IMG/VR virus record: IMGVR_UViG_3300009130_000147
Span: 1 to 22,690 of that record
Reading direction: 5' to 3' (one strand)
From: a virus
DNA length: 22,690 nt
Position 1 is the stretch's first letter; every line of letters starts with the position of its first letter. The notes under the pieces were generated by a model that saw only the letters and a program-made list of their open reading frames with translations, made no database searches and had not been told where the DNA came from. The position numbers and the translations under genes are program-made. Positions 1,324-22,690 of this stretch are shown piece after piece.

Positions 1324-1328
1324 TAATG
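1321..1328 (+). promoter_or_regulatory. TAATAATG stop/start junction, likely translational coupling
   Basis: The TAA stop of the 404-residue gene (1321-1323) is followed two bases later by the ATG (1326) of the 2703-residue gene. The preceding 20 bases are AT-rich with no good Shine-Dalgarno; the nearest purine run, ATGGA, is about 16 bases upstream. Termination followed by reinitiation is the simplest way to start this very long gene. Confidence 0.5.
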
Positions 1329-4300: not shown

Positions 4301-7300
4301 TGTTAAACACCCTGAACTTGGCAAAAATTACGCTGGCGAAACGCTTACAATGGACGCCTATGCTAAAACCTTTGGTGCCTCACCCATTCCCGTTGAGACT
4401 TATGATTTTGGAGAATTAAACTTCGCACCAGGACTTAAGACTTCTTATAACCAAATGTGCTCACCGGAAGCTGGGATTTTTAAAATAAGCAATCAACCAA
4501 CCTCAACCAAATATGAATTTGATTTACCAAATCCAACCAAAGACATCGGTATAGATTTTAATAATATAGCAGCCCAGATGGGGACAGTAAAGGGTGAAAT
4601 TCTTTCGTCTTTCGGTTCTCGCGAAACAAGAACACAAAAATCTGACGAAGAAATGATGAGCAACATGGAAACCCAAATGGCATTGCTCGGCGGCTCGTCA
4701 TTTGATATTGTTTATGATGTGAAACATGACGACGGAACCAACAATATCCAGCAGGACAAGTTTTCATTGGATATGTTGATTTCCCCGCCACAACCTCTCT
4801 TGGGGAGATCTGGCGCAAGCCCAGATGCGTTGGCAGAAAAGAATTTAGGTGGTCCGATTGCAACCTCTCCAATCAATCCTAAAGCAATTGAAATTTTAAA
4901 CTGGAAGAACTTGGAAGTTGCTAAGGGAACAAATCAGAGCGTACAACCACAAGAGGGATACTTTTATGATTTTGCTAAATATTCTTGGGAGAATGGCAAC
5001 ACAATCTATCGAAATGGAGAAGCAGTACAGAAAGTTTCGCCTCGGCAAACTCCCGCATCTCTTAAAGGTATTCTTAACACAACTGATCCTGCCAACTATC
5101 CAGCAGAGTTCATAGATTACTTATATTCTAAGGATACCTATTCTAATCAATTTAAAGATTTGCTCTGCTCTATGACAAATCAAATCGCCCAGTCTCCTTA
5201 CATAAATCTGCAACCGGATGATCAGGGTCGCGGACTGCTTAATGTTAAATTATCTCCAGCAAAAGTTGTTGGACAAGGACCATTGTGTTATAGAACACTT
5301 TTGGATGTTGATTTGATCAAGCAACGTGTTCTTGAAGAATATGAATACGTTAAGTGCTTTAGGGAGGCATTTGATCTGCCGCCCGGAACTGACAGCACAG
5401 GTTTGCTTGGAAATAAAGACAGCGCATTTGAGGTTTCCAACCGTTCGGGCGCAGTGCTATTAACTGTTCGTTTGTATGCTGTGGAGTTTTTATTAAAGTC
5501 AGTCTATACTTTCCATTATTTTGTGATTAACGACGCAAGCCAGGTGGATGATACTTCTGTATACTATCTCTATCATCAAATTCATGATGCCCTGAAGAAC
5601 CGTTCAATCGGAACAACTTACTATTCTGAATTTCAAAAAGAAACCATTGGGTTGTACAATCGAAATGTTGAAAGTAATCCCCTGAGTATGGAAAATAAAG
5701 ATTCCGAGGGCAACTACCCAGATTTTAGAGTCGCTCTTGAGTTTTTTATTAGAAACCAAATCGCATCGGTGTCAAGAAGGCTTGCAAAACATGTTAAACT
5801 TAAGGGTGATGGCTCTATCGATAGTATTCTGGTAGACGAATGGATTCCAACGGTTGAACCGGTGAAGGCTCCAAATGAAATCCGCTTTGCAGAACTTGTG
5901 GAAGACCAGGCGGGTATAGAAACTTGGAAAAACAAAACTCTAGGGAACTATAAGACAGTCGCCGGAATCCCAACTATCTCAGACGAGATTATATCAGCCA
6001 TTAGCCCAGATGGTACTTTGTCTGAAAAGCGAATAAACCTGATTCGTGGCGGATCGGGCGCGAAAGGTGGAGTCTGGGGAATGCTTTATCAGAAAGCTTC
6101 TGGTTATTTCTTTAGAGAATATTTTGCACCAGATATTAAAAACGAAGAAGCAAGAAATCTTTTAAGACCTTTTACCAAAGCATCCGAGTTGAAAACAAAA
6201 GCCCGAGATGCCGCAAATAGTCTTTGGACACCAACCGCAGGCACGGTTACATCTCCTGCCCAAAGCAGTCGAGTTCCAGGCACCGTGAATCCCAATGTCA
6301 ATGCTTTCCGCGAAGGGATTCTATTAGGTTGGTCTGCAAGCGAACAACCATTCGCCAAAGACGCAGGCATTTTGAATAATGCGTGTAACTATGAATCCGA
6401 AGGTCTTGTTGGTAAATACGGTTTTCCTTTTAAGAGGGCAATAATAGATTCTCCAATTGCTGTGGGCAAGGAATTACCAACTCCCATCGGAGAGAATGAA
6501 ACAATTTTAAGTGGTTCATTTCCTTTTGGCGTTTCTCAGGCTGAAATTGAGGGTATGATTGGTGATGGTGACTCTATTCCTGGCGGGCTCATAAGGTTTA
6601 TTGAAGCTGCAACAAACTGGACCATGGGACCAAAAGGGCAACAATCAGGAATAAATCGCGACCTGCCGCCCAACTATCTTCGGTATGAAAAGCTCGGAGA
6701 CACACGCACCCCAAATGGTGAATATGTTATTTATGAGAGGACAAACCGTCCTTGGTGGTATAATGGACCAAATTTTTACCCAAATGGTGCAATTACCCAC
6801 TCTGATGATCGAGTTGTCACAAAACGTGTAAATTACTTACGCAGTTATAACATGATCGGACCAGGAAGCTTGTTGTGGGCGATGTCTCGGTATGATGGTC
6901 GCAAACAGCTTCCCGGAAACAGTAATAGATGGGCTAATGGTGTGGGAGTATTTGGGCTTGTTAACCACTTGTTAATGTATCAAGACTCCGCGTTGTTTTG
7001 GCCCAACGAATATAAAAGTGGCACATCTGCCACTGCGCGAGGTCAAGATTATGGCTCCACAATCATTACAAACGCCATTTCCCAAAGACCTGGCAGGACA
7101 GAAACTCAGATCCCATTTTTGATTGATTGGCACAATTATGTGCTAGGAAAAGGGACAGAACAAGATTACACACTAGGAACAAATAGCGAGATCACTAAAA
7201 ATGTTGAATCGGCAATATATCACTGTGATGAAAATATAATACCTTATATAAGCTTATTAGATTTGGATGTTCGGACAATTATAAAAACTTTAGAATGGGA

Positions 7301-9437
7301 ACGTCAACAATATATCGATTTTAAACACGATTTCGAAAATCAAGATTGGGCAACCACCAACGAAGAACCTCATTCTTTTTGTTTAAAAGTGTTGAAAAAG
7401 GGAACCCTCGGTGCAAGAAGTGCTCCTGAACTCGAAACACTCTCACGAAACGCCATCGAAGCCTTTCGAACACAACTTCCAACCAACGTGGGTCACTATG
7501 ACAATATCATAGCAAAATATGGCGACTGGATAGCCGAAATGGTTGAAATTCGCAACCGCTTTACATTAGCCGAGGAGCAACGACAATGTATGGCAGAGCC
7601 TGCAAGAGAACTTCTTGCTAACGGGAGGATGCCGAGAAACGAAATGCTTGTACCTCCGACTTTCGATTTAGAAAATGGGGGAGTCATCCTAGAGCCATAT
7701 ATTCGGGTCGAAGATCATGAACCAGATCCAAACATTCAAGATAACATTGATTTTGTTAAAAATCGTGGAGTGGATGCTGTTGGCAACATTGATCTCAATG
7801 TCACCCAAAACGTACAAGCTCTTGAGCAAAATATGTTGAAAGGAGTTGTTAATATTGACTTGTGGGATCAATATATGAAAAAACGATTCGAAGGCTCAAT
7901 CCCAACTCAAAAACTCCCTGCCGATGAACTTGTCGCCACAACCATCAACCAAGAAGATTGTGGAGATACGTTGCCCAATAGACAAACAGATTTTAACACT
8001 TTAACCCAAGATCCTCCAATCGTTCAACCTTCCGATCCTCAACTGAGGGATTTCTTTAAAAGTGTTTATTTCGGAGTAAGGCTTTCGCATGTATCTTCTC
8101 TACCAGATGGTTTTGAAAACTCAGCCACATCCCAGGGTTTTGGAACTCCCCGCAATGATATAGCGAGAATCAATGCAGCAAAAGAAAAAACATATGAACT
8201 TATAGAGAAAACTCCTGACGGAAAAGTAAGAAGGATTTATGTTACCCCATTAACTGCGGTTGAAAAAGAGACAAACATGTTTACCAAAATAAGTGACATG
8301 AATTTGGCTCAAGGATACTCTGTGGAAAATGATGTAGCCGAAATTTTAAATAAATGCGGAGCACAAAGAGAAACACCAGATGATGCGAAAAAGGTGGGAT
8401 ATTTCCGGTACATGTTCGGAAAGGCAAACGAAGACATGGCAGGAGACACAATTCCACTCTCAAGCCCTCGTGATGACTTGCAACAACAACTAATACGAAC
8501 AGATGAATATTCTTTCTTGTTTAAATACGTATTTCCAGTAAACCGAATGCTGTCTTTAACAAATATTTATTCAGCCATGTATTTGGAATCTTTACCAGAT
8601 ATTAAAAATATGTTTGCCCCAACCAAGGAAAACTTAATGTATATTTTCTTGAATTCTTTGAGAAGCGGGCAATATGCTGATGCTTGTCAAACAGGCAATA
8701 AAGATCTGCTTGACGCATTTGCTAACGGTATTAACCCTCCATGGGCAGCATTCCTTGCTCTTGTACTGAAGTTTCCTTTAAAAATATTTAAGTCATTTAT
8801 GGAGCAATCTGATATTAATATTGCGATCTCTAAAAATATTCAAAGAGTTATACAAACTTTGAACGGTATTATTGCCGATGCGCAACGCCAAGCAAATGCT
8901 GTTAAAGCCCAAGCAGAGGCATTTGCGGCATCTGCCGAGAGGATTGCCAATCTTGAAATAACGGAACAGGGCTGCGGCTTCGGAATCCACTCACCAGAAG
9001 CGACACAAAAGCCACCAGATAATTGGTTTGATCCAGTTGATGCGACATTTTTATATGAACCTGAAACGTGGATGATTGGTTTATCATTGATGCCAGCAAC
9101 AATTTTTGCTCCATGGTTGTGGGGACCACCAATAACACTCCCTCATGGGTTGGCTTATTGGGCTCTTGATGATAGTCGGGTGAATTGGCTTGACGCATAC
9201 GTGGATGACTGGATCAGTCAATTACAAAATGATAAGGACAACTTAGAGGTAGAAGTTCTCACTGAAGAATGTGATATTGATCATGAACTTGAGTTTGGTA
9301 CAACACCTGCCCAACTTAAAAAATTGCTAAAGACCAGCAACAAACAAATAACCGCTGGCTCATCTCCACCAGAAGGTATCAGTGCTGGCAATACTGGTGA
9401 CACTAATGGTTCTGGAAATCAGTCTGGAGGTTATTAG
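1326..9437 (+). CDS. Giant phage structural protein of unknown function (2703 aa)
   Basis: I do not recognise a named family. The frame is open for 2703 codons and ends in TAG. The first 350 residues are mixed and acidic. Residues about 425-468 form a strongly hydrophobic or amphipathic helix pair (around MLVGILESMFNTLVSMIIEI) followed by a Cys-containing stretch (CNEC). Residues 770-790 are very charged (QKSKDRKKQRLKD). The middle 1500 residues are rich in Pro, Gly, Asn and aromatics, suggesting many globular beta or mixed domains rather than one long coiled coil. Near the C-terminus there is a hydrophobic stretch at about 2472 (PPWAAFLALVLKFPLKIF), an Ala/Gln coiled-coil-like segment at about 2505-2543, a Trp/Pro-rich hydrophobic stretch at about 2582-2615 (MPATIFAPWLWGPP), and a Gly/Ser/Asn tail ending in SGGY. 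It lies directly upstream of gp25. A hub, tail-tip or cell-puncturing component is possible. A tape measure is less likely because of the low helical content. Confidence 0.6.
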   Translation: MASFDPNKAKSILPVDWTSLGSSAKPFFQSASGSLPDRYSVTILSQYSTTGGPELDSRLAESITPALDKVLDFYEKQPEDSTRDNFRVEDYYISERPSAKIKVLISVPCNIIDNLPDQEYSIDYNTAKPPTKEISLNTSDLSLNLDIAATFLEKYKGEIDQFYGRVYDIDLDDEITKLKGFLPALTTFVQANNIVYSSANSDLITLYANDDYKVLVAKVNQGSGYVELTKGYNNFLTDSSVNHDRTIFLLTKLDQIADVYLKNQSISWSEFFKEYIFRPPTIDFSKPPPQSHVLSEEEDEKIKQEQRQLAVTKEQITLFNGYMNNEEVRESYLKKMNEASQFTGDTVLANLDQLSSLMKDMDSLYDSLLNKVGIDGLLDSAMQCLDYQQLGLTGISTDILDTLTQATATVQGAFNPPTMEFPDNFPIVDFMKDTIEKMLVGILESMFNTLVSMIIEIIKSLFDFCNECAVESDAQGNKTFSELRFGQASFGGIVKSAFGLGFANPESILLGSFYSSLDDGSGGNIELFAQSVLKNSIKNKDQLLVMEAQKVYAEYQDGKLPQDQRVILEDKVEKLFKDPARVARPDDQGEIQASTWARFGLVAMPTNSLFYNLDENTLFESTEVTPARIFLVLRNESPWESKTFKNAAQQLTEYLELTSTVLNPGELGNAMLGCNVGGEAKEAMRNALPDFPDIYSILAGTTDEETDDNISRCWLGVGNLLPETVIVEQITSIVNNVPEKYRCLCEADDTALREQLLAKKDPQMSPEQRREQVQKSKDRKKQRLKDLASLMGKGNALEGLLPPLVCSGSFDESGNPIIVPGVLSSTHPVTQMMVKGTLDTIYDPLHTTFSRDLSGLIPAMSQRPIVKKEVKRTVIANVNDTDVRVFNPEFLDMIGKGLVTYGSLPYGSKIPQSAAPVTESDGSLPEGEPILYNWFLGSIGFDDYKNFAGAGMWEEGQTRPTPEQEYDWEQVNRAATASAGQSIIGGRRMGDYVKHPELGKNYAGETLTMDAYAKTFGASPIPVETYDFGELNFAPGLKTSYNQMCSPEAGIFKISNQPTSTKYEFDLPNPTKDIGIDFNNIAAQMGTVKGEILSSFGSRETRTQKSDEEMMSNMETQMALLGGSSFDIVYDVKHDDGTNNIQQDKFSLDMLISPPQPLLGRSGASPDALAEKNLGGPIATSPINPKAIEILNWKNLEVAKGTNQSVQPQEGYFYDFAKYSWENGNTIYRNGEAVQKVSPRQTPASLKGILNTTDPANYPAEFIDYLYSKDTYSNQFKDLLCSMTNQIAQSPYINLQPDDQGRGLLNVKLSPAKVVGQGPLCYRTLLDVDLIKQRVLEEYEYVKCFREAFDLPPGTDSTGLLGNKDSAFEVSNRSGAVLLTVRLYAVEFLLKSVYTFHYFVINDASQVDDTSVYYLYHQIHDALKNRSIGTTYYSEFQKETIGLYNRNVESNPLSMENKDSEGNYPDFRVALEFFIRNQIASVSRRLAKHVKLKGDGSIDSILVDEWIPTVEPVKAPNEIRFAELVEDQAGIETWKNKTLGNYKTVAGIPTISDEIISAISPDGTLSEKRINLIRGGSGAKGGVWGMLYQKASGYFFREYFAPDIKNEEARNLLRPFTKASELKTKARDAANSLWTPTAGTVTSPAQSSRVPGTVNPNVNAFREGILLGWSASEQPFAKDAGILNNACNYESEGLVGKYGFPFKRAIIDSPIAVGKELPTPIGENETILSGSFPFGVSQAEIEGMIGDGDSIPGGLIRFIEAATNWTMGPKGQQSGINRDLPPNYLRYEKLGDTRTPNGEYVIYERTNRPWWYNGPNFYPNGAITHSDDRVVTKRVNYLRSYNMIGPGSLLWAMSRYDGRKQLPGNSNRWANGVGVFGLVNHLLMYQDSALFWPNEYKSGTSATARGQDYGSTIITNAISQRPGRTETQIPFLIDWHNYVLGKGTEQDYTLGTNSEITKNVESAIYHCDENIIPYISLLDLDVRTIIKTLEWERQQYIDFKHDFENQDWATTNEEPHSFCLKVLKKGTLGARSAPELETLSRNAIEAFRTQLPTNVGHYDNIIAKYGDWIAEMVEIRNRFTLAEEQRQCMAEPARELLANGRMPRNEMLVPPTFDLENGGVILEPYIRVEDHEPDPNIQDNIDFVKNRGVDAVGNIDLNVTQNVQALEQNMLKGVVNIDLWDQYMKKRFEGSIPTQKLPADELVATTINQEDCGDTLPNRQTDFNTLTQDPPIVQPSDPQLRDFFKSVYFGVRLSHVSSLPDGFENSATSQGFGTPRNDIARINAAKEKTYELIEKTPDGKVRRIYVTPLTAVEKETNMFTKISDMNLAQGYSVENDVAEILNKCGAQRETPDDAKKVGYFRYMFGKANEDMAGDTIPLSSPRDDLQQQLIRTDEYSFLFKYVFPVNRMLSLTNIYSAMYLESLPDIKNMFAPTKENLMYIFLNSLRSGQYADACQTGNKDLLDAFANGINPPWAAFLALVLKFPLKIFKSFMEQSDINIAISKNIQRVIQTLNGIIADAQRQANAVKAQAEAFAASAERIANLEITEQGCGFGIHSPEATQKPPDNWFDPVDATFLYEPETWMIGLSLMPATIFAPWLWGPPITLPHGLAYWALDDSRVNWLDAYVDDWISQLQNDKDNLEVEVLTEECDIDHELEFGTTPAQLKKLLKTSNKQITAGSSPPEGISAGNTGDTNGSGNQSGGY

Positions 9438-9443
9438 AAATAA

Positions 9444-9482
9444 ATGAATGAAAGTTCTAATTATTACAGAGGGAATTTTTAA
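9444..9482 (+). other. Possible 12-codon leader ORF overlapping the gp25 start (speculative)
   Basis: In the only sizeable gap of the window (44 bases, 9438-9481) a frame reads MNESSNYYRGNF and stops with TAA at 9480-9482. The last base of that stop is the first base of the gp25 ATG (TAATG). A GGAGG at 9426-9430 lies 13 bases before its ATG, rather far for efficient initiation. It may be chance, or a coupling device for gp25. It is too short to judge as a protein. Confidence 0.15.
9468..9473 (+). promoter_or_regulatory. Shine-Dalgarno of the gp25-like gene
   Basis: AGAGGG lies eight bases upstream of the ATG at 9482 and supports that start. No promoter-like element or terminator hairpin is evident in the surrounding 44-base gap. 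Confidence 0.6.
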
Positions 9483-9871
9483 TGCCTTATTTATCTCCAA
9501 GACTGCCAATTAACAGAAATCTTATCACCGGATATGATTTGATAAGTGATTATGTAACTCTTGTCAAACAGAATTTAAAAAACTTACTTCTTACGGTGCC
9601 CGGAGAGAAGATGATGAATCCGGATTTTGGCATTGGTCTTAAAAGGTTTCTTTTCGAGAATGATGATCCTACTATATACGACTCAGTTGCGAGCAGAATT
9701 AGAGAACAGATTAACAAATATTTACCTTACCTAGAAATAACGGATATCGTCTTTAATTCAGCTTCTCAAGATTCGTCATCTGAACCCAATACACTTTATG
9801 TGCAAGTAGAATATCGTATTATTCCTTTAGAGTTGAGCGATGCTATTATTGTAAATGGAGCGATTAACTAA
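9482..9871 (+). CDS. 25: Baseplate wedge protein, GPW/gp25 family (129 aa)
   Basis: This is a core wedge component of contractile tails. In T4, gp25 binds gp6 and helps nucleate the sheath at the baseplate; homologues occur in P2 (gpW) and type VI secretion. The length matches T4 gp25 (about 132 residues). The family signature is visible: helix LVKQNLKNLLLTVPGEKMMN with the Gly41-Glu42 pair, then PDFGIGLKRFLFE (47-59), where the conserved P-x-FG turn precedes a hydrophobic helix, and then a helix with SRIREQINKYLPYL. The C-terminal strands (TLYVQVEYRIIP) complete the small alpha/beta fold. The start is supported by AGAGGG eight bases upstream. It is followed after 23 bases by the gp6-like gene, its expected partner. 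The family call is secure; assigning it to T4 rather than P2 lineage is not. Confidence 0.9.
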   Translation: MPYLSPRLPINRNLITGYDLISDYVTLVKQNLKNLLLTVPGEKMMNPDFGIGLKRFLFENDDPTIYDSVASRIREQINKYLPYLEITDIVFNSASQDSSSEPNTLYVQVEYRIIPLELSDAIIVNGAIN

Positions 9872-9894: not shown

Positions 9895-11697
9895 ATGTCA
9901 ACCAAGAAACAATATCCAGCCATCAAATATACATCTCGCGATTTTAACACTATCAAAAACGACTTGGTAGAATATGCCAAGCGATATTACCCCAACACTT
10001 TTAGGGACTTCTCTGAAGCCGGTTTTGGCTCAATGATGATTGATATGGTGGCTTATGTGGGCGACATTTTATCATTTTACCTTGATTATGAAGTTAATGA
10101 ATCTTTCCTAGATACAGCAATCGAATATAATAATGTCTTAAGAATTGGTAGGCAATTAGGGTTTCATTTCAAAGGCACGCCAGTTTCATCAGGCTTGGCG
10201 TCTTTTTTTATAATAATACCTGCTCGTGCCGCAACCGGCGAAATTGACGAAACTTATATTCCAATATTAAAAAAAGGAAGTATAATATCAACTGCTGATG
10301 GAGTTGCTTTTACTTTAAATGAAGATATTAATTTTGCCGACCCCAAAAACGACAGAGTGGTTGCCACTGTCGATGAGGATAACGGAAATATCACTTCTTA
10401 TGCGATTAAAGCTGTTGGTCTTGTCACCTCTGGTCAAGAGTACGAGGAGAAGTTTACCATTGGAGATTTCCAGAAATTTCTTAGTATTTCGCTCGGAGGC
10501 TCTAATATCAGTGAAATTATCTCAATTGAAGATTCTTTGGGTAATGAATATTATGAGGTAGATTATCTCTCGCAAGATGTAGTTTATCGTGCAGTCCAAA
10601 ATACAGGAGCAAATTCATCCGATACAACATCCACGATGCGACCATTTGCAGTTCCCCGCAGATTCACTGCCGAATTGCTTGGTGGAACCACGGTTATTCA
10701 ATTCGGTTTTGGCAGCGAAAAGGATGTGACAACGGATCCTCTCATCGACCCAAGTAAGTCTGTCTTAAAGGTTCATGGAAAGGACTATGTGTCAGACGTT
10801 TCTTTTGATCCTACCAATTTAATCTCAACAGATAAATTTGGAGTAGCCCCCTCAAATACAACCCTCACAGTAACTTATCGAGCAAATACCATGGGTTATG
10901 TGAACGCTTCGGCTAACTCTCTTATCAACGCTGTGGAACCACGCTTTGATTTTGCGAACCCCAACTCGCTTAGCACCTCTAAAATGTCCAATGTTGTAAA
11001 CTCTTTGGAGGTTAACAACGAAGAACCAATTGTTGGGGATGTAAGTCTTCCCACACTTAATGAACTCAAACAAAGGATTAATAACGTTTTTTCTACCCAA
11101 AATCGAGCAGTTACTGCTCTAGATTATAAGTCTTTATGTTATTCAATGCCCCCTCAATATGGGGCAATCAAAAGAGCAGCCATCTTTAAGGACGAAGGAT
11201 CGCTAAAGAGAAACTTAAATATTTATGTTCTCTCTGAGAATTCAAACGGTGATTTTTCCAAGTCTAATTCTACAATAAAACAGAATTTAAAACAATGGCT
11301 GAATCAATCCAGAATGATAAATGATACGGTTGATATTTTGGACGCTAAAATAATAAACATTGGAATTGAATTTGATGCAGTCTCCACTGTAGAATCAAAT
11401 CCTTTCGAAGTGTTAAACAATGCAGTGGCAAGCTTGTCTGTTTTTTATGAGAGAAAGTTCGAAATTGGTGAACCGTTCCATATTGGGGAAATCTTTTCGC
11501 ACCTGAATAAAACACCAGGAATATTAGACACCACTCGTGTTAAGGTTTTTCAAAAAACAGGAACAGGATATGCCAATGAAGTTCTTTTTAATGTTGATGA
11601 TAACATGTCTGAGGATGACCGGTATATAGTGGTTCCCAAAAATGCAGTTTTGGAGATAAAATACCCTCAAAGCGATATCAAGGGAAATGTGAAGTAA
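9895..11697 (+). CDS. 6: Baseplate wedge protein, gp6 / baseplate-J-like (600 aa)
   Basis: This is the wedge protein that forms the ring around the tail hub in contractile tails (T4 gp6; gpJ in P2; TssF-related in type VI secretion). The N-terminus has the typical pattern YTSRDFNTIKNDLVEYAK (about 10-27), then a helical region with MMIDMVAYVGDILSFYLD and NESFLDTA, and RQLGFHFKGTP, which matches the 'ELNY.PR' region of cyanophage gp6. A central beta domain carries the family's T-x-T-V-x-Y-R-x-N...GYVN segment (GYVN at 334-337). The C-terminal part has LPTLNELKQRI (385-395), AVTALDYKSL (404-413) and YGAIKRAAIF (422-431), which are characteristic of J-like proteins. At 600 residues it is close to T4 gp6 (660). 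It directly follows gp25, and the next ATG begins one base after its TAA. No truncation or missing core region is seen. Confidence in the family is high. Confidence 0.88.
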   Translation: MSTKKQYPAIKYTSRDFNTIKNDLVEYAKRYYPNTFRDFSEAGFGSMMIDMVAYVGDILSFYLDYEVNESFLDTAIEYNNVLRIGRQLGFHFKGTPVSSGLASFFIIIPARAATGEIDETYIPILKKGSIISTADGVAFTLNEDINFADPKNDRVVATVDEDNGNITSYAIKAVGLVTSGQEYEEKFTIGDFQKFLSISLGGSNISEIISIEDSLGNEYYEVDYLSQDVVYRAVQNTGANSSDTTSTMRPFAVPRRFTAELLGGTTVIQFGFGSEKDVTTDPLIDPSKSVLKVHGKDYVSDVSFDPTNLISTDKFGVAPSNTTLTVTYRANTMGYVNASANSLINAVEPRFDFANPNSLSTSKMSNVVNSLEVNNEEPIVGDVSLPTLNELKQRINNVFSTQNRAVTALDYKSLCYSMPPQYGAIKRAAIFKDEGSLKRNLNIYVLSENSNGDFSKSNSTIKQNLKQWLNQSRMINDTVDILDAKIINIGIEFDAVSTVESNPFEVLNNAVASLSVFYERKFEIGEPFHIGEIFSHLNKTPGILDTTRVKVFQKTGTGYANEVLFNVDDNMSEDDRYIVVPKNAVLEIKYPQSDIKGNVK

Positions 11698-13207: not shown

Positions 13208-16200
13208 ATGTCTGATATAAAGAATCTTTTCGGAAAAAACAAAAATACACAGGTTTTATCTGATTCTTCTTTACAGAAAGAAGGAGCAAAGATAGAGTCA
13301 GTAGATTACTTAAAAAGTAATTTGAAGCAAAAGCGCCGCTTTATTCCTTATATCGACTTCTCTTCAGCTTCTAATTTTGCTCGCTATGGCTCTGCTGAGA
13401 AATATTATACTGATTCTATAAATTATATCTCCAATGAATACCCCTATGATGGCTCTTTGCGCGAAAAAATTGACTGGAATCTTTCTGGTTCTTATTTTGA
13501 TAAGCACTTATTCGACAATGAATATCCTCGTACAAATGGATTTATTTTAGTTGGAAAAAATTATGGCACACCAATAGCCGATGCTGGTGGTTATGATACT
13601 TTTTCTGCTGCATCGAAGGAATATATCTTTGTTAAGGGCTCTCCACATCCAGCTATCGGAAACGGGAGCCTAAGAAATGACTGGAAAGATTATAATCTTT
13701 ATAACACCTCTAGTTTTGGTAGGTATAACCTTGAGATTCAAGGGGACAACGGGCTAACTTTAGAATTTTGGTTAAATAAAGATGACTATGACAGCTCCGA
13801 TGAGTCGTCAAAAGAAATTGTTTTTGATTTATGGAACAGTGGAACTTTTGGCAATTCTGATTACGGTCGCTTTCGTGTTGAATTAACAGGTGGCGCAAGC
13901 ACTGATGTCCTGGATCCTGTTTTCAATATCGAACTACGGTCAGGATCCGCTGGCTTTTCTTATAGAAGTGACATTACCGGTCCTCATAGCACAACCATCT
14001 CTCTAAGCTCAAGTGTTTCACTAACCGGCTCCTGGAATCATTATGCCCTATCCTTCCAAAATACTGGAAGCCAAATGTTTGGGAAGTTATATTGCAACGG
14101 TCAGCTAGCCCATTCTGTGGTGGCTGGTTCAAGTATCGGTCAAGTGACGGGCTCGATGATTGCCACTATTGGTTCTTTAGTGACTTCTGTTTCTGGTACA
14201 TATGGTGCCATTGGAGCAGGAAAGTTATCTGCTTCTTTAGACGATTTTCGATATTGGAGAAGGATAAGGACTTCTGAAAAAATTGGTAAATATTGGTTCA
14301 CCTCTGTTAATGGTGGAACTAATAGTGATATTACGAATGCGGCAAGTGCGTCAACGAAATATAGTTATGAGAACCCTCTTGATCTGGGCGTATATTATAA
14401 ATTCAATGAAGGTATTAATAATACAACCGCATCAGTTCCAAATGACGCAATAATTTTAGATTATTCAGGGAGAACCACTAATGGAGCGTGGACTGGATAT
14501 ACTTACGGATCTCGCTTTACGGGCTCTGCTATGGTCATTTCCAAGGCAGCAAAATCTGAATTTAAAGACCCGATTATTTATTCTAACCATCCTGATGTAG
14601 TCAGTTTGAGAACAGATAAGACCGCTGAAGGTTTGGTCTATGACCAACAAAATAACGCCAGCCTTTACCACTCTTTCCCCGCATGGATAATCGAGGAGGA
14701 CGAGAGTAATAATTCCGATGGTCTGAAAGATCTTACTCAAATTCTTGGCAGTTATTTTGATACACTGCAACTGCAAATTGAGGCAGTTCCTAAGTTAAAA
14801 GAATTAAAATACCCTTCTGGAAGCAATAAGCCGTACCCGTTTGCCGACAAACTTGTAAATTCTTTAGGGTTTGTAACGTCAGAGGTGTTAGAGAATGCGA
14901 CTGCATTAGAGTATTTTGCATCTCGAAATGATGTCCAGAGTTATTCCAAAAAGCTAAACGAAACAAAGAATATAATTTATCAAAACATTTACAATAACTT
15001 AAACTATATTTTCAAAACAAAGGGCACTGAGAAATCATTTAGAAACCTTATCAGGTGCTATGGTATTGATGAGGAGTTGGTTAAGTTAAACTTGTATGCC
15101 AGCAACACCTCTTATGAATTCAGGGATAATAAAGATTTTAGAGTTGTAAAGAAGCGTTATGCTGATTTTAATAAATCTACCAGATTCGGCGCAACAGTTT
15201 TTCAACAAACGTCCAGTTTAAATGTCAATTCGAGAGAGTATGTCAGCTCAAGCGCCGAGATGATATTTCGCGGAAACACGTATGAAGCGGAAGTCATTTT
15301 TCCAGATAAACTAGATTTTAACAGTCCTTATTACGTTTCGAATGATTTTGTTACGGCTTCAATTTACGGTTGCCATACTTTAGGGACATCCGGTAATTGG
15401 GGCAGCCCCGATGTTGGAAACTTCCAAGTACAATCAGTGCGCCCAGGCATCCATTCTTCTGATGCATACTTTCAATTAACTGGTTCCTCGGGTGGATTTT
15501 TCCCACTATTAACCAGTAGTGTGTTCAGAAATGTTTATGATGATTCAAAGTGGAATTTTGCTGTTAAAATAAAACCTTCCAAATACCCTCAAGCTGATGG
15601 TGTTGCGGGAAGTGCAACTGGCAGTTATGATATCGAGTTCAGTGGTTACAATTATGTCTTGGATGTTCTCGTAAACTCCTTTGAGGCATCCTCAACAATC
15701 TCCTCTAATGGCGCTAGGAAATTCCTATCAGCTAATAAAAGGTTTTTTGTCGGCGCTCATAGAACTAACTTTGATGGAGGCATATTACAAAGAGCCGATT
15801 CAAAAATTTCTTCTGCTCGTGTTTGGATGGATTATCTGGACAACAGCGTCATTAAGGCTCACGCACAAGACGTAGGCAACTTTGGCTCCCAATATCCTTA
15901 TAAAAACGCTTATATATCACAAATGAGCCAGTCTTTGGGGGATAACGTTGTTAATATACCTCAAATGGAGACTCTGGCGCTTTATTGGGATTTCGAAACG
16001 ATTACGGGCTCTAATGCATCGGGACAATTTGTTGTTCCCGATGTTTCTTCGGGCTCTGTGTCTCTGGCAAATCGATGGGGATGGCTAGGACCAATCGCCA
16101 AATATCAACACACTGGCTTGGGCTACGACTTTGAAGCATCGGACACTGGTTCCATCGACCGCAGATATGTTCAGTCAGCGAAACAGCAACTACCTGAAGT

Positions 16201-19200
16201 TGGGAATAGCTCTGATATGGTTTCGATCATTGATGACACAACTAATCAGATTTTTACAAGAGACTCACGCCCCATAGATTACTATTTTGCATTTGAAAAG
16301 AGTATGTATGGAATTGTTTCAGAGCAAATTATTAACTATTTTGGAACAATTGTTGCCTTCAATGATTTGATCGGTGCGCCAGTTAATCGTTATCGTCAAG
16401 ATTATAAAGATTTAGAAAAATTAAGATCCCTTTACTTCGAAAGAGTGCAAAACACTCCTGACTTTGAGAAGTTTATGGAATACTATAAGTGGATTGATTC
16501 TTCCATAGGATTAATGCTTCAACAGTTAATTCCAGCATCAGCCAATTTTACTGAAGATTTACGCAACATGGTTGAAAGTCATGTCCTAGAGCGAAATAAA
16601 TATTGGAATAAATTTCCAACACTTGAGATGAAAGCAAGTGATCCGGAAGCTGGTCTTCGCGGCATCAATGAAATGCTTTATTCTGGGAAACGAGGCTTAG
16701 CCCCAATCCCCACCACCGCAACAGATTCAAACTGTGAGTGGTGGTTGGATCGTACAGAACGAAATAATCCTAATATCACTTCGGGCGTTTCGAGTGTTGA
16801 TACTGACAGAAATACAATTCGCAGGGCAAATGATTTCAAAAGCGGAAGCGGTCCAACCCTTGCAGTTTCAAGGGATTCCACATCCACCACAACAACTTAT
16901 ACAGGGCAAGCATATGCTTTAAGAAACTTTACAAAACCTTATAAATTGACAGTTGATGAATCGCCGGAAATTCATGGCGGATCAAATTTTGCAAAAAATA
17001 AAACAGTTGAATATACTCACGAAGCTCTTAAATTTGATTCATCAGAACAACTTACTATTGCAGCTGCGAGTGTTCCTGCTAAAGAGGGGTGCGAGGATGT
17101 AATAGATCCTAATTCGAAATTTAAATTAGATGCAAAAGTTGCTAATTCTACTGATCCAGAGGGATATTTGAGTGGGAAATCTCGCATTTTCGCACCCTTT
17201 AGCATCTATAGTTCTTCAGTACAATCAGGATATGAAAGTGTATTTCTCAAGGATTTTAATCGGTGGGATATTAATAATTATCATGATGACATTTACGGTG
17301 ATGATAAAGGGATTCCAGTTCAAGGTCCATTTACTGAAGCGCATGTCGGCGGAAGACAGCATCGACATGTAAATGTTAACACTGCATCAACGGATACAAC
17401 CCTTACAAGACCCGAAGCTTGGGATTTGTCAATGGATGCTAACACCTTAACAATATCTCATCGATCAGCTCACCAACCTCGTGCAACGATGATTCGTGAT
17501 GCATACGCAAAACGACCATTAAATATTGCAAACATTAAATGGGGAACCGGCTCTCAAGTTGCTGGCAACTATCAACATGATTATCAGATTGTACAAACTT
17601 CTGGTAGAAAAATTAACAATAGGTACTTTGTAAAGTCTGAAGGTTTTGTCCCTGACGTTAATTTTGTGACAGCTTCCTCAACTTACCTCTCGGGTGTTAT
17701 TGATTATGCTCTGCCTCGATATGATCTGACGGGAAGTAACAAATTTATTTTTGTGGAACGGTTTTCTGCACCTGGTGGACCTGAAGTGACTCGCGGCAAC
17801 TTGGACACTAATTCCGAAGAATTTGGAATTTATAATGGACTGAATTATCGCAACTTAACTGTCAGAAATGCATTACAAAGTTGGCAAACAGAACACTGTG
17901 GACAATTTGGGATTAGTCCAACAGGAAGTCCAGGCGATGGAACTAGTCCTGTAGAACATCGTACAAATGCACTATCTTATGATGGGGTCATCGCCTCTTA
18001 TCATAAGATTAATAGAAACCCATTTGTAAATGCGAGTAATGTTAAAGAACAATCCAAGTATGTGTGGTGGAACATTGTAGATGGCTGTGCGGTTCCATCA
18101 TATCAAAATAATGATGTTTATTTAACAAAGTTACTAAACGCGGGCACTTCCTACAATAATGGTGTTGCCATATCAGAACAAAGAGTGGGAATGAATGGTT
18201 TTGTAGAGTTTCAAGTACATGAACCAGAATCAAACACTGATTATTCCGGAAGTGTTGCAGTCGGCTTCTTCGGTGTGTCTTCTAATGCTTATCTCGATTC
18301 GATTGCGAACATTACTCTTGATTGGCAAACGGTGCCTAGGGGAAGAATTTATTGTACTATTAATGGAGGAACTGTACACACAGTAAGCGTCCCAAACGGT
18401 TATCTTGCATGGACACCGAACGAAAGATTTCGCATTGTGCGTGAAGGGGATAATATTTATTTTCAGCGAACTTCCGGAAGTAACGTCTTTAAAGATTTTT
18501 TTAAAACTCAATTGCCATATGATGGACCAGGTTCATACACTTCATTCAAAGCGGGGGCGTGGCTTTACCATGACGGCAATTACAGTTATGGACGGTCATC
18601 GGTTAAAAATGTTAAAATTTCTAGCGGAAGATACGACAACTGGTATGTCCAACACGCAATTCCACAAAGTGAATTGCAATATGCGTGGATAAATGATTCT
18701 TATGATCTATACAAAAGCCAACCATCTGGTTATGCTTCCAACTATTCTGTTCCATCTGGAAGCACTTCCACAACTGCGTCGGCAGTTCAGTTTTCATCTG
18801 CAAGCAATTGGGGTTTCGATCCGATTGAAAACGGAGAATTATATCCTGTTAATTATGTTAATATGCTTCCGGTGTTGCCCACATCACTGAAATCCCCATC
18901 TGCATACAAGTATGGTCTTTTTGGGAATATAGGTTCAAAGTCTCGTGTAAAAGCTGGGTGGTATGACCTAAAAAATGTCACTTTAACAGAGAACGGCACC
19001 AAACTCACCAAGACATCAGCTGATGGTTGGGACGGCGCAGCAGCAGGCACACAAGAAATAAATGGTAATGGATATATAGAGTTTACCGCTGATCAAACAG
19101 ACGCCTATCTTTTCGTGGGATTAAATGATAATCCCCCTGCACATTTCTCGGGCGGTAGCCCAGCCTATCTTGCATTTAGCGATATGGAATACTCCATCGA

Positions 19201-22200
19201 ACTTCAAGCATCGGATGTGGAGATCTGGGAAGATGGTTCATCTGTATTTAGCTTGGGCGCTGGTGTTTATCAGGTCGGGTGGAAATTTAGAATAACTCGG
19301 CAATATAACAATATCTTTTACCAACATGACAATGGTACGGACACTTGGACGACTTTTTATAAGAGTTCTAAGCCAATTATCACAAAATTGTTGCCGGATG
19401 CCTCTATTCACGAGGAAGGTGCTTCAATATCGGGCATAGTAGTTAATGTTAGTCGCGACAATAACATAGTTTATCCAGGATTTTGCTTTTTTACAGGTTC
19501 TGACTTGGCAGCATCTGGTGCAATTGGCACATACCTCAACAACCTTAACGGTCCTTATGGCTATCCTTCTTGGAAGCAAATCCGCACAGGCGAAACACCA
19601 GTTGCGCGGTATCATAAGAATAATAACATTCTTTCAATTTTAAAATCTAGCTCAACTGGTCGAACAGATCAATATAGAAATTTTGTCCAACCACCCGTAG
19701 AGTTCAAATATCGCCCACTCAACACCGTCCATTCGGCACCAGTGGGCGAAACAGTGTCTCAACCGATCACACTAAGACATACTTACGGTAACAATAAATG
19801 TCTCTTTTCTGAAGGTCCGACCAATGATGGAACTTCCGATAGTGGTTCCATTGCCAATTGGTTGCTCCAGTCCGACACAAATGGTTCAGTGGAAGTTTAT
19901 GATCGGATCGTTGCAGATGCTTCTCTCGACGCAGATTTGTCATCAGTGGAATATCGAGAAATCATTTATCCTCGTTCGACTAACACTGGTTTGGCACAAA
20001 CACGCGGAAGAATAGGTTACGCGGAAGTTGCAAATGGAACGTTAAATGCTGATGGAACAATTTCAGCGTCTTTATCAAATGGAACAAACGGCATTGATCG
20101 CGGACCACTGGAGAGAAGGACTTATTGGAGAAACCAAGCAAAGTATAGGAATAGGAGGTCTGGAATAACTCCTGGTGGAGCAAATCTTGGAGTCGTGGCT
20201 CTCGGCGGGAGCAACAACGAGTCTAAGTGGTATAGTATAGCCAGCACACTACCAAATTCTCAAGGATATTATGATGGATTTGCCACAAGTATTTACGGTC
20301 TGGGTAAAACACCAATTGTCGCTGAGTTGGATTGGGTGTTTCGGACTGGACTCAAACAAAACTGGGCGTTTAGTAATTATCGAATAAGTGGCGGCGTATC
20401 AATCAACAATTTTGCTGACATGGGTGAACTTAACTCTGCCAACGCATGGACCTGGGAAGGTTGGGCAGGAACCAATGTTAGCGGTAATGTTCCTGCGGGC
20501 GGATTACAATATACTTCTGTGCATTATCCCACAGCTTCAGCATATTACTATCACTTTCCAGCCTTATCGCCTGGGCAGTTTTCGGCATCGGCATATGGAA
20601 TCTCCCCAACACAACATACGCAGTCTTTAATGGCAAATCGACCATTAGAATGGCGCACAGAAGAACTTTCAGGCAAAAAACCATTCTTTGATTCATACAA
20701 AGAATATGCAGAAGATATTCGAGGTCTTGGAAAAAGCTTGACAGTTATTCCAGAGTTTAAGATTTCTGAACATATGCCATATTATTTAAAATACAATTTC
20801 AGAAGCCAGAATGATAAGATTCTGTCTTTGCCAGGTGGCAATATAACATCCAGTGCAAATATTGAAGAATTCCGCGCCCCAACCCAATTTCCAGCGATGA
20901 CGCTCCCAACTGGTATCCGCGAGCTTGATGAGAAATTCTTTAATGATTATTCTAATTCTGATTTCCAAAAATATTTTGGAGAATTTGAAGGCTCATATCC
21001 TGATGAGAAATCTGAAATAACTTTGCGCTGTAATGGGGTTAAAAAGCTGCTCCCTTATGACGGTTTCTATCCACAGCAAAGAACTTTGCAGCTCGCCTCA
21101 TTATTTTCACAATCAATTGCTCCATATGTAAACGGCATCGGCTGGCGACATGGTGCATCTGACGGTTCATCAAACTCTGCACAGTCGGGTGCTCTGGCAT
21201 TACAATCTTTGCTCCAACCGTATTATGCGCCCGGTATTATGTATAATACCATTAAGTCAGGAATAGCAGTCGATTGGGGAGCCTTGACTGGTTCATCGCT
21301 TTCTCTTGCTGGGTCAGGCGTTCTTACTAATGCTGCAATAAGTTCTAGTATAAATTATCGAATTGGCTTCGAAAGTATTCTCGACCCTCTAGGTAGTGTC
21401 GGCTTACCCGCGAGCGCATCCGGCAATTCTAAAATGTTTTTGTTAACTCCAACATGGCAATACATACAACGCGGAAATAATTACGCGGGAGATCAAACCT
21501 ACCAACGAAATTCTCCTCGTCAACCTTGGACCTCAATCGATCAAGTTAAAAGAACCGCAGCAAAAGACACAAAAGAATACAATCTTTATAAAGCGGCAAC
21601 AAACAACTTCTTCGCTGAAATTCCAAATTTTTTCTTACAAGGAGAAAAACTGAAAGCCATTTATTCCAAGAACCAGGGCGATGTTGGGCAGAGCTTACAG
21701 GAGGGTTATGATTACTATATGAACATAACTCTTGAAAAGACACCGGATTTAGTGATGATGCAGGAGGATAATCAAGATATCTTAATTCCCCTAACGGGGG
21801 CTGCCGGTTTTCGAGATGTTCCGTTTTACGATGGAAGATTGTTTGGTCCACCTGTTTTGGCAGGAATGAAAGAGACATGGGGAAAAACCGAATTTATGAA
21901 TGGCGATGCAACACCAACACTTCGGGTATCTGCGCCGGGATATGCACCCTATACACCGCCATATTTTTATGGAAAATCTGTCATGACGCTTAAATTTTCT
22001 GCTAATTCTTCAAATGTGCGTGAGAATTTTTCATGGAATAAGTATTTTAATGAAGTGTCTATGAGCTTTTCGAATGAGAGGATGGATGCAATGTTTGCCT
22101 CTATTGCTGGTTCAGATTATACTTCCAACCCATCTCCAGCAAAAGCATCAGCTATGCAGATTACAAGCTCTATTAAGTGGGATGGTTTGTCAATACAAAG

Positions 22201-22690
22201 AGAGGTGATTAGGGATTCACTAGGAAAGGTTAAAGAAGTTAGGGAGCAAAATGACTCCCTACGTCAATGGGTTATTAGTCCATTTATGGAGACTCCTGTT
22301 TTAGATTTTAGTAGTAATTCTTATCCACCAGCAACTGGTCCTCGTGGAATGTGGTCCGGGTATGGTTCAATCCCTGACAACGCTAGTGGCGTAAAACTGT
22401 CTGTCGAAGAAAGTCTCGAACAAGTAGAATTTAGCAGTGAAACCGCCAAAGACTTTGCGTCAATTGCTTTCGCCAAGGGAGCAGCAAGAGAACAGAAAAT
22501 CGGTCAAGTTAATTCAGCCGGTAAAGACATTTCAGAGGCAATTGTCGCAATCCCATATCTCACCCGACCAACGACGGGTGATGAAGCCTATACCACTGAA
22601 AATACTTTTCTTGATGATCGTTATTTCTTTTCGTTAAGAGCATACCCAGGCAACGCTTGGGATGCCTCCGGCGTATTCAAGGCAATTAAA
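13208..22690 (+). CDS. Giant modular tail/fibre protein with LamG-like and lectin-like domains (at least 3161 aa, 3' end outside window)
   Basis: Reading from ATG 13208, six bases after the previous stop, I find no stop in 3161 codons. AAGAG at 13194-13198 is a modest ribosome site. Domains in order: a LamG/concanavalin-A-like sandwich at about 173-350 (LTLEFWLN, SWNHYALSF, LDDFRYWRR); an adaptor-like helical segment with FDTLQLQIEAVPKLKELKYP (517-536) and KGTEKSFRNLIRCYGI (605-620), a pattern I associate with phage tail proteins; a second LamG-like sandwich at about 691-888 (KWNFAVKIK, FFVGAHR, SSARVWMDY); segments VGGRQHRH (1380-1387) and RFSAPGGPE (1518-1526); two diverged copies of a lectin-like domain (1619-1805 and 1916-2081); and a C-terminal region with SGKKPFFDSY (2488-2497) and IPEFKISEHMPYY (about 2514-2526). 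The protein is rich in Gly, Ser, Thr, Asn and Tyr, with no membrane segment. It is probably a peripheral baseplate or long fibre protein for surface binding. The exact role is unknown. Confidence 0.7.
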   Translation, partial: MSDIKNLFGKNKNTQVLSDSSLQKEGAKIESVDYLKSNLKQKRRFIPYIDFSSASNFARYGSAEKYYTDSINYISNEYPYDGSLREKIDWNLSGSYFDKHLFDNEYPRTNGFILVGKNYGTPIADAGGYDTFSAASKEYIFVKGSPHPAIGNGSLRNDWKDYNLYNTSSFGRYNLEIQGDNGLTLEFWLNKDDYDSSDESSKEIVFDLWNSGTFGNSDYGRFRVELTGGASTDVLDPVFNIELRSGSAGFSYRSDITGPHSTTISLSSSVSLTGSWNHYALSFQNTGSQMFGKLYCNGQLAHSVVAGSSIGQVTGSMIATIGSLVTSVSGTYGAIGAGKLSASLDDFRYWRRIRTSEKIGKYWFTSVNGGTNSDITNAASASTKYSYENPLDLGVYYKFNEGINNTTASVPNDAIILDYSGRTTNGAWTGYTYGSRFTGSAMVISKAAKSEFKDPIIYSNHPDVVSLRTDKTAEGLVYDQQNNASLYHSFPAWIIEEDESNNSDGLKDLTQILGSYFDTLQLQIEAVPKLKELKYPSGSNKPYPFADKLVNSLGFVTSEVLENATALEYFASRNDVQSYSKKLNETKNIIYQNIYNNLNYIFKTKGTEKSFRNLIRCYGIDEELVKLNLYASNTSYEFRDNKDFRVVKKRYADFNKSTRFGATVFQQTSSLNVNSREYVSSSAEMIFRGNTYEAEVIFPDKLDFNSPYYVSNDFVTASIYGCHTLGTSGNWGSPDVGNFQVQSVRPGIHSSDAYFQLTGSSGGFFPLLTSSVFRNVYDDSKWNFAVKIKPSKYPQADGVAGSATGSYDIEFSGYNYVLDVLVNSFEASSTISSNGARKFLSANKRFFVGAHRTNFDGGILQRADSKISSARVWMDYLDNSVIKAHAQDVGNFGSQYPYKNAYISQMSQSLGDNVVNIPQMETLALYWDFETITGSNASGQFVVPDVSSGSVSLANRWGWLGPIAKYQHTGLGYDFEASDTGSIDRRYVQSAKQQLPEVGNSSDMVSIIDDTTNQIFTRDSRPIDYYFAFEKSMYGIVSEQIINYFGTIVAFNDLIGAPVNRYRQDYKDLEKLRSLYFERVQNTPDFEKFMEYYKWIDSSIGLMLQQLIPASANFTEDLRNMVESHVLERNKYWNKFPTLEMKASDPEAGLRGINEMLYSGKRGLAPIPTTATDSNCEWWLDRTERNNPNITSGVSSVDTDRNTIRRANDFKSGSGPTLAVSRDSTSTTTTYTGQAYALRNFTKPYKLTVDESPEIHGGSNFAKNKTVEYTHEALKFDSSEQLTIAAASVPAKEGCEDVIDPNSKFKLDAKVANSTDPEGYLSGKSRIFAPFSIYSSSVQSGYESVFLKDFNRWDINNYHDDIYGDDKGIPVQGPFTEAHVGGRQHRHVNVNTASTDTTLTRPEAWDLSMDANTLTISHRSAHQPRATMIRDAYAKRPLNIANIKWGTGSQVAGNYQHDYQIVQTSGRKINNRYFVKSEGFVPDVNFVTASSTYLSGVIDYALPRYDLTGSNKFIFVERFSAPGGPEVTRGNLDTNSEEFGIYNGLNYRNLTVRNALQSWQTEHCGQFGISPTGSPGDGTSPVEHRTNALSYDGVIASYHKINRNPFVNASNVKEQSKYVWWNIVDGCAVPSYQNNDVYLTKLLNAGTSYNNGVAISEQRVGMNGFVEFQVHEPESNTDYSGSVAVGFFGVSSNAYLDSIANITLDWQTVPRGRIYCTINGGTVHTVSVPNGYLAWTPNERFRIVREGDNIYFQRTSGSNVFKDFFKTQLPYDGPGSYTSFKAGAWLYHDGNYSYGRSSVKNVKISSGRYDNWYVQHAIPQSELQYAWINDSYDLYKSQPSGYASNYSVPSGSTSTTASAVQFSSASNWGFDPIENGELYPVNYVNMLPVLPTSLKSPSAYKYGLFGNIGSKSRVKAGWYDLKNVTLTENGTKLTKTSADGWDGAAAGTQEINGNGYIEFTADQTDAYLFVGLNDNPPAHFSGGSPAYLAFSDMEYSIELQASDVEIWEDGSSVFSLGAGVYQVGWKFRITRQYNNIFYQHDNGTDTWTTFYKSSKPIITKLLPDASIHEEGASISGIVVNVSRDNNIVYPGFCFFTGSDLAASGAIGTYLNNLNGPYGYPSWKQIRTGETPVARYHKNNNILSILKSSSTGRTDQYRNFVQPPVEFKYRPLNTVHSAPVGETVSQPITLRHTYGNNKCLFSEGPTNDGTSDSGSIANWLLQSDTNGSVEVYDRIVADASLDADLSSVEYREIIYPRSTNTGLAQTRGRIGYAEVANGTLNADGTISASLSNGTNGIDRGPLERRTYWRNQAKYRNRRSGITPGGANLGVVALGGSNNESKWYSIASTLPNSQGYYDGFATSIYGLGKTPIVAELDWVFRTGLKQNWAFSNYRISGGVSINNFADMGELNSANAWTWEGWAGTNVSGNVPAGGLQYTSVHYPTASAYYYHFPALSPGQFSASAYGISPTQHTQSLMANRPLEWRTEELSGKKPFFDSYKEYAEDIRGLGKSLTVIPEFKISEHMPYYLKYNFRSQNDKILSLPGGNITSSANIEEFRAPTQFPAMTLPTGIRELDEKFFNDYSNSDFQKYFGEFEGSYPDEKSEITLRCNGVKKLLPYDGFYPQQRTLQLASLFSQSIAPYVNGIGWRHGASDGSSNSAQSGALALQSLLQPYYAPGIMYNTIKSGIAVDWGALTGSSLSLAGSGVLTNAAISSSINYRIGFESILDPLGSVGLPASASGNSKMFLLTPTWQYIQRGNNYAGDQTYQRNSPRQPWTSIDQVKRTAAKDTKEYNLYKAATNNFFAEIPNFFLQGEKLKAIYSKNQGDVGQSLQEGYDYYMNITLEKTPDLVMMQEDNQDILIPLTGAAGFRDVPFYDGRLFGPPVLAGMKETWGKTEFMNGDATPTLRVSAPGYAPYTPPYFYGKSVMTLKFSANSSNVRENFSWNKYFNEVSMSFSNERMDAMFASIAGSDYTSNPSPAKASAMQITSSIKWDGLSIQREVIRDSLGKVKEVREQNDSLRQWVISPFMETPVLDFSSNSYPPATGPRGMWSGYGSIPDNASGVKLSVEESLEQVEFSSETAKDFASIAFAKGAAREQKIGQVNSAGKDISEAIVAIPYLTRPTTGDEAYTTENTFLDDRYFFSLRAYPGNAWDASGVFKAIK
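18062..18622 (+). repeat. Lectin-like (SPRY/concanavalin-A-type) domain, copy 1 within the giant tail protein
   Basis: This covers residues 1619-1805. Key marks are VWWNIV at the start, AISEQ...NGFVEF, AVGFFGVS, RGRIYCTINGG, ERFRIVREGDNIYFQR, and a closing AGAWLYH...VKNVKIS. The order of strands matches copy 2 at 18953-19450: N-G-(F/Y)-(V/I)-E-F, then (F)VG(F/L), then (E/K)FRI.R....I(Y/F)(F/Y)Q, then a final strand after D.S/A. The copies are recognisable only as protein; no nucleotide repeat is evident. Confidence 0.5.
18953..19450 (+). repeat. Lectin-like (SPRY/concanavalin-A-type) domain, copy 2 within the giant tail protein
   Basis: This covers residues 1916-2081. It has the textbook form of the module: LTKTSADGWDGAAAGTQ, GNGYIEFTADQTDAYLFVGL, MEYSIELQASDVEIWEDG, GWKFRITRQYNNIFYQHDNG, then LLPDASIHEEGASISGIVV. 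This layout (GW..GA..TQ, GYVEF, VGL, ..YE.G, FRI....G.V.Y..NG, DASL...GA) is one I associate with repeated domains of large bacterial surface and Rhs-like proteins. It probably binds a glycan or other surface ligand. Confidence 0.6.

Follow-up and report, generated by a model that had tools for sequence, protein, structure and literature searches.

A putative multi-slot baseplate scaffold with exchangeable SPRY-like modules in a lineage of marine phages

Adhesion modules inserted in tail proteins are already known from a few cultured phages. In the evolved Dit proteins of lactococcal skunaviruses, carbohydrate-binding domains are inserted in a conserved tail-tip protein and promote adsorption (PMC10688798). 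The baseplate wedge protein Gp119 of Bacillus phage Vp4 (831 aa) binds cells and has predicted carbohydrate-binding modules, and its shorter Deep-Blue homologue (341 aa) is given without such a module in the available part of that report (PMC11406892). SPRY and Laminin G3 domains, proposed to act in host surface recognition, are described for jumbo phage tail proteins in the accessible text of a third source (PMC7824862). Among titles and abstracts on baseplate domain insertion with concanavalin-like folds, we found nothing on the scaffold described here. The locus studied here lies in a 22.7-kb fragment of an uncultivated marine virus of bacteria (hereafter the window, the whole analysed stretch of 22,690 nucleotides). 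Its giant protein resembles evolved Dit in that the presence of the inserted domain varies between close phages, but the scaffold is much larger (approximately 3000-4800 aa), follows gp25 and gp6 homologues in a myovirus-type setting, and offers four or more slots that take modules of two families (compare PMC10688798). Like Gp119, it is predicted to be a baseplate protein with modules whose homologue can lack them; the module folds, scaffold and host group differ, and the available part of PMC11406892 describes no multi-slot population series. The two fold types reported for jumbo phage tails are the same as those of the slot fillers found here, whereas the accessible text of PMC7824862 describes no interchange of SPRY and Laminin G3 at one slot, and the present module does not match Pfam SPRY. 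What this locus provides is a natural series of 73 distinct proteins in which the same slots occur empty, occupied or swapped, some pairs being nearly identical elsewhere. The series marks permissive sites in a giant scaffold and makes the relation between module content and host adhesion directly testable in a widespread uncultivated group.

The gene order in the window was a gp25 homologue, a gp6 homologue, a 500-aa gene and then the giant gene, with the following features.

9482..9871, + strand: baseplate wedge protein gp25 homologue (Pfam PF04965, E=2.2e-15; phrog_261, E=1.7e-22)
9895..11697, + strand: baseplate wedge protein gp6 homologue (phrog_219, E=8.3e-18; baseplate wedge protein of Flavobacterium phage immuto, E=2e-65)
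13208..22690, + strand: giant scaffold ("chassis") protein, an ORF open to the window end and cut there, 3161 aa
16076..16744, + strand: most conserved chassis core, residues 957-1179, 44-76% identical in distant relatives

The adjoining gp25 and gp6 homologues identify a T4-like baseplate region. The best full-length cultured relatives of the gp6 homologue were those of immuto and a Microcystis phage, at about 31% identity. The complete giant gene was found in the relative L004 (3369 aa; the shared part is 100% identical to the window), and complete unsplit relatives ranged from roughly 2860 to 4834 aa. The chassis core was used as the query for finding relatives, which yielded at least 550 confirmed relatives at viral loci, 80 of which were kept for comparison. 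Residues 1-1618 of the giant protein had no match among 50,697 phage records at the sensitivity of tblastn. A profile of giant residues 440-760 matched immuto gp109 (E=5.7e-18), as did the core profile (domain E=1.8e-5). This 1265-aa protein (L126:21249-25046) is annotated as hypothetical and encoded three genes past the gp6 homologue, and no module copy was found in it by profile search. As a chassis homologue, gp109 offers a cultured model for the giant protein. Gene order together with this homologue led us to read the giant protein as a probable enlarged baseplate-associated protein, its location in the virion being deduced from gene order. Upstream of gp25, the window also encodes a 2703-aa protein (1326-9437) without a Pfam or PHROG match except for a sub-threshold YkuD hit (E=0.058).

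A previous reading of the sequence without database searches (the sequence-only reading) had proposed two diverged copies of one domain in the giant protein, at residues 1619-1805 and 1916-2081. An iterated profile set nearly identical boundaries.

18062..18625, + strand: module copy 1 in slot A, residues 1619-1806, predicted SPRY-like sandwich, highly diverged allele
18956..19450, + strand: module copy 2 in slot B, residues 1917-2081, predicted SPRY-like sandwich, close to a bacterial surface module

Aligned to each other, as that reading had suggested, the copies shared 23% identity across 133 columns in BLASTP run with composition adjustment and the low-complexity filter off (E=9e-9). Their Smith-Waterman score of 93 lay far above those of 1000 shuffles (mean 32.9, s.d. 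5.4, maximum 58), and copy 2 alone as the query against the window record recovered copy 1 at E=4e-6. On this similarity, which is well beyond chance, the two copies are homologous. The common motifs quoted earlier (NG[FY][VI]EF, FRI and I[YF][FY]Q) were all present in the translated segments.

The structure predictions agreed with the expectation that both copies share one fold. The AlphaFold2 model of copy 2 (mean pLDDT 91; 59-sequence alignment) found its best matches among SPRY domains (Foldseek E to 2.4e-7) and superposed on RanBP10 SPRY (5jia) with Z 16.0 over 149 residues (rmsd 2.5). The weaker model of copy 1 (mean pLDDT 80; 48-sequence alignment) matched concanavalin-type folds generally, with CBM66 at the top (Z 14.7), followed by the human SPRY domain 2yyo (Z 14.6, 140 residues, rmsd 2.2), and chains 2yyo and 4azz scored highly for both models. 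The two models are not independent, since their alignments have most rows in common. The superposition on the SPRY/B30.2 fold extended across the whole domain for both copies, with a pLDDT of only 80 for copy 1, and both are predicted to form the same concanavalin/SPRY-type beta-sandwich; the different folds that would have spoken against a common origin did not appear. At the sequence level, Pfam SPRY (PF00622) matched neither the whole giant protein at E<=1 nor five module copies at E<=10, and Laminin_G_3 (PF13385) matched neither copy 1 nor copy 2; the module is thus named SPRY-like by fold only. No Pfam model matched the family that phages have in common with bacterial surface proteins, apart from a weak hit to Neuralized (E=0.011) in a single member. 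We took this hit, and the likewise weak ones to Big_9 and ribosomal protein, to be due to chance or to be distant hints of the fold. A PDB sequence search with the module returned no convincing solved structure, and the module carried no ligand-site signature. The name "lectin", given to the domain in the sequence-only reading, found no support, as the fold is of the SPRY/concanavalin type and no carbohydrate-binding family model matched the module. Eukaryotic SPRY domains mostly bind proteins, and the name may therefore be wrong.

The resemblance of copy 2 to a repeated module of bacterial surface proteins, also suggested earlier, was borne out. Pattern-based scans of the collections were unusable because alignment A1 was too diverse; genome contigs were scanned instead with a bait consensus, and the matches were then confirmed with a profile made from phage sequences only. 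The phage-only profile reached bacterial loci with a best E of 1e-18 and showed that Bacteroidota carry the module in arrays that reach 10 copies, at intervals of about 250 aa. A Verrucomicrobia genome had eight copies, and Acidobacteriota, Nitrospirota and Elusimicrobiota had one or a few; a bait-free search found the module in 17 of 295 genomes of one class. Two of the three bacterial carriers scanned end in Por_Secre_tail, the type IX secretion sorting domain, which marks them as secreted or surface proteins. In the reciprocal direction, the bacteria-only profile gave 69.9 bits for copy 2 and a weak 6.5 bits over 41 residues for copy 1 (shuffle maximum 3.4). Being barely reached from the bacterial side, copy 1 is probably a far-diverged member, tied to the rest by intermediate phage sequences; this membership is suggested by its direct comparison with copy 2, by those intermediates and by its lower-confidence model. 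The domain thus also exists outside phages, its profiles connecting it with tandemly repeated units of secreted bacterial surface proteins, chiefly in Bacteroidota. Unlike the phage modules, the Bacteroidota repeats form long, regularly spaced arrays with type IX sorting tails. Searches of phage and plasmid sequences with the module found only Cellulophaga phages and one Bernardetia plasmid. Cellulophaga phage phiST, a Bacteroidota phage, has a single copy of this family in its virion structural protein CGPG_00086, as do its relatives, but the carrier (555 aa) is not a giant chassis, and the phiST copy groups with the bacterial ones.

Across the viral relatives, the module occupies four sites of the giant gene (slots A-D), two of which are empty in the window.

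16052..16052, + strand: slot C, approximate position, empty in the window; module there in L007 and L031
16745..16745, + strand: slot D, approximate position, empty in the window; module there in L007, L037 and L069
17999..18019, + strand: left anchor of slot A, YHKINRN, residues 1598-1604; YHKxNRN or close variants at the same place in relatives
18632..18691, + strand: anchor between slots A and B, YDNWYVQHAIPQSELQYAWI, residues 1809-1828, kept in nearly all relatives
19556..19594, + strand: right anchor of slot B, YGYPSWKQIRTGE, residues 2117-2129, conserved in relatives

The anchor consensus was YDNWYVQHxIPQSxxQYAWI between slots A and B and YPSWKQIRTGE to the right of slot B. The length of the slot A gap was bimodal among the 73 distinct proteins: 53 were empty (10-37 aa) and 20 filled (161-864 aa), with none between. 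The fillers of the 20 occupied slots included the SPRY-like module in seven and Laminin_G_3 above the Pfam cut-off in eight. The chassis tree called for a minimum of 12 changes of state in slot A and 10 in slot B; these counts are approximate because the tree was a quick one. All strict module profile matches fell within one 12-member clade of this tree. A 189-aa slot A insert in L062 (9485-10051), which had no Pfam match, may be a very diverged module copy and was left out of the counts (E about 0.3). Laminin_G_3 also occurs near the N-terminus of the giant protein in L007 (10526-11041, residues 180-351; E=2.2e-7), where the corresponding region of the window had no Pfam match.

Exchange was most evident between close relatives. 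The window and L005 shared 99% nucleotide identity at residues 1501-1560 (97-100% at third positions), dropping to 24-53% across slot A (about 20% at the protein level), and copy 2 was 77% identical in protein. L007 and L031 were 98% identical in nucleotides over residues 1-1345, and L007 had 169 extra residues at slot D, whereas L031 had about 172 at slot B. Close relatives thus differ by gains and losses of whole modules and by allele replacement, beside nearly identical DNA. To judge from these alignments, the giant gene is a mosaic beyond the modules, and variation is not restricted to them, since residues from about 1260 to 1440 and those after 2310 also diverge strongly between close relatives. 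A diversity-generating retroelement that mutated the slot A module could account for how very strongly this slot differs between close relatives. We regard this as extremely improbable: no reverse transcriptase was detected at E<=1e-3 in 13 related records, some of them fragments and four of them of 184-206 kb, and the differences span the whole domain with length changes, whole modules coming and going.

When the copies were compared in a module tree, they sorted mainly by slot. The slot B copies of the window, L005 and L031 formed one group (99% support), the slot C and D copies formed another with full support, and copy 1 was a long branch of unsure placement. In the unrooted tree, a branch with a support of 85 separated the phage chassis copies from the bacterial copies and that of phage phiST. 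These results bear on the proposal of the sequence-only reading that one host adhesion domain was captured, duplicated in tandem within the phage lineage and then diverged. The copies are indeed homologous, and a single branch can set the phage chassis copies apart, which would allow a single acquisition followed by spread among the slots; the module tree is compatible with such a course. Copy 2, however, is sister to the copy 2 of L005 and L031 rather than to copy 1, a conserved anchor separates the two slots, which are independently empty in relatives, and phages with almost the same sequence immediately upstream have site A alleles of only about 20% identity. On the copy trees, we reject a recent tandem duplication in the window phage, and we consider the proposal as a whole unlikely, its recent, in-place form being disfavoured. 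As copy 2 is sister to the copies at the same site in L005 and L031 and each site is empty in relatives, the pair appears to be older and to reflect the occupancy of two slots. Capture from a host, with the direction of transfer that this implies, was likewise not supported as stated, because the tree is unrooted and a single branch splits phage from bacterial copies.

The reading that best accommodates these observations, to which we assign a probability of about 0.68, is a multi-slot baseplate-associated scaffold with exchangeable SPRY-like modules that would be exchanged in their flanks and bind the host surface. The giant protein would offer several permissive slots between conserved blocks, slots A and B in the window phage holding modules of a family that bacteria use as secreted surface-protein repeats. 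From the near-identical DNA beside the replaced stretch, we infer that modules are exchanged by recombination in the conserved flanks. The modules may stick out from the baseplate and attach to glycans or proteins on the host surface during adsorption, and a phage that exchanged its slot A allele would adhere to a different target. By analogy with evolved Dit and Gp119, the most likely predicted role is host-surface adhesion, and the earlier idea of a candidate receptor-binding region is strengthened by the allele exchange at site A. The modules could instead be structural or stabilising inserts that serve within the baseplate as spacers or decoration contacts and do not bind the host. The SPRY fold is used for protein binding in general, and the natural split of the giant gene at slot A indicates that the region tolerates change; nevertheless, the Laminin_G_3 swap at the same slot and the rapid allele replacement fit recognition better than fixed internal contacts, and we find this option quite unlikely. 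Slightly more doubtful, although nothing specific speaks against it, is binding to environmental particles, a mucus-like matrix or polymers instead of a cell receptor, which would raise the encounter rate. Folds of the Laminin_G_3 and CBM66-like types often take part in polysaccharide binding, and both were met here, in the slot A inserts and among the matches of the copy 1 model. Returning to the exchangeable scaffold, the finding that relatives have nothing, another version or a different kind of binding domain at the same slots suggests that these phages change adhesion by ready-made modules. The chances are about even that the wider form of this view holds, in which the giant baseplate protein of a widespread marine phage lineage is a multi-slot display scaffold, SPRY-like and Laminin-G modules from a pool shared by phages and bacteria are swapped via the flanks, and adhesion specificity evolves by cassette rather than whole-gene exchange.

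Further observations concerned the giant gene outside the module sites and its division into separate ORFs. Between the window and L005, nucleotide identity was mostly 96-100% at window positions 16088-16930 (residues 961-1240), mostly 74-94% at residues 1-930 and only 54-67% at residues 1260-1440. In L052 (12140-12200; the same in L050), two ORFs take the place of the single giant gene, the break falling exactly at slot A; the first of them stops after ...YHKVNRNPLKRIEEA and the next starts at MAFVTASVYDNYWV, and L053 has the same ORF layout as L052. The giant gene is also split at two further places in other relatives (L075:10900-10930, L099:10900-10930, L018:15400-15460 and L020:15440-15460), in each case with a new start codon at or just past the stop.
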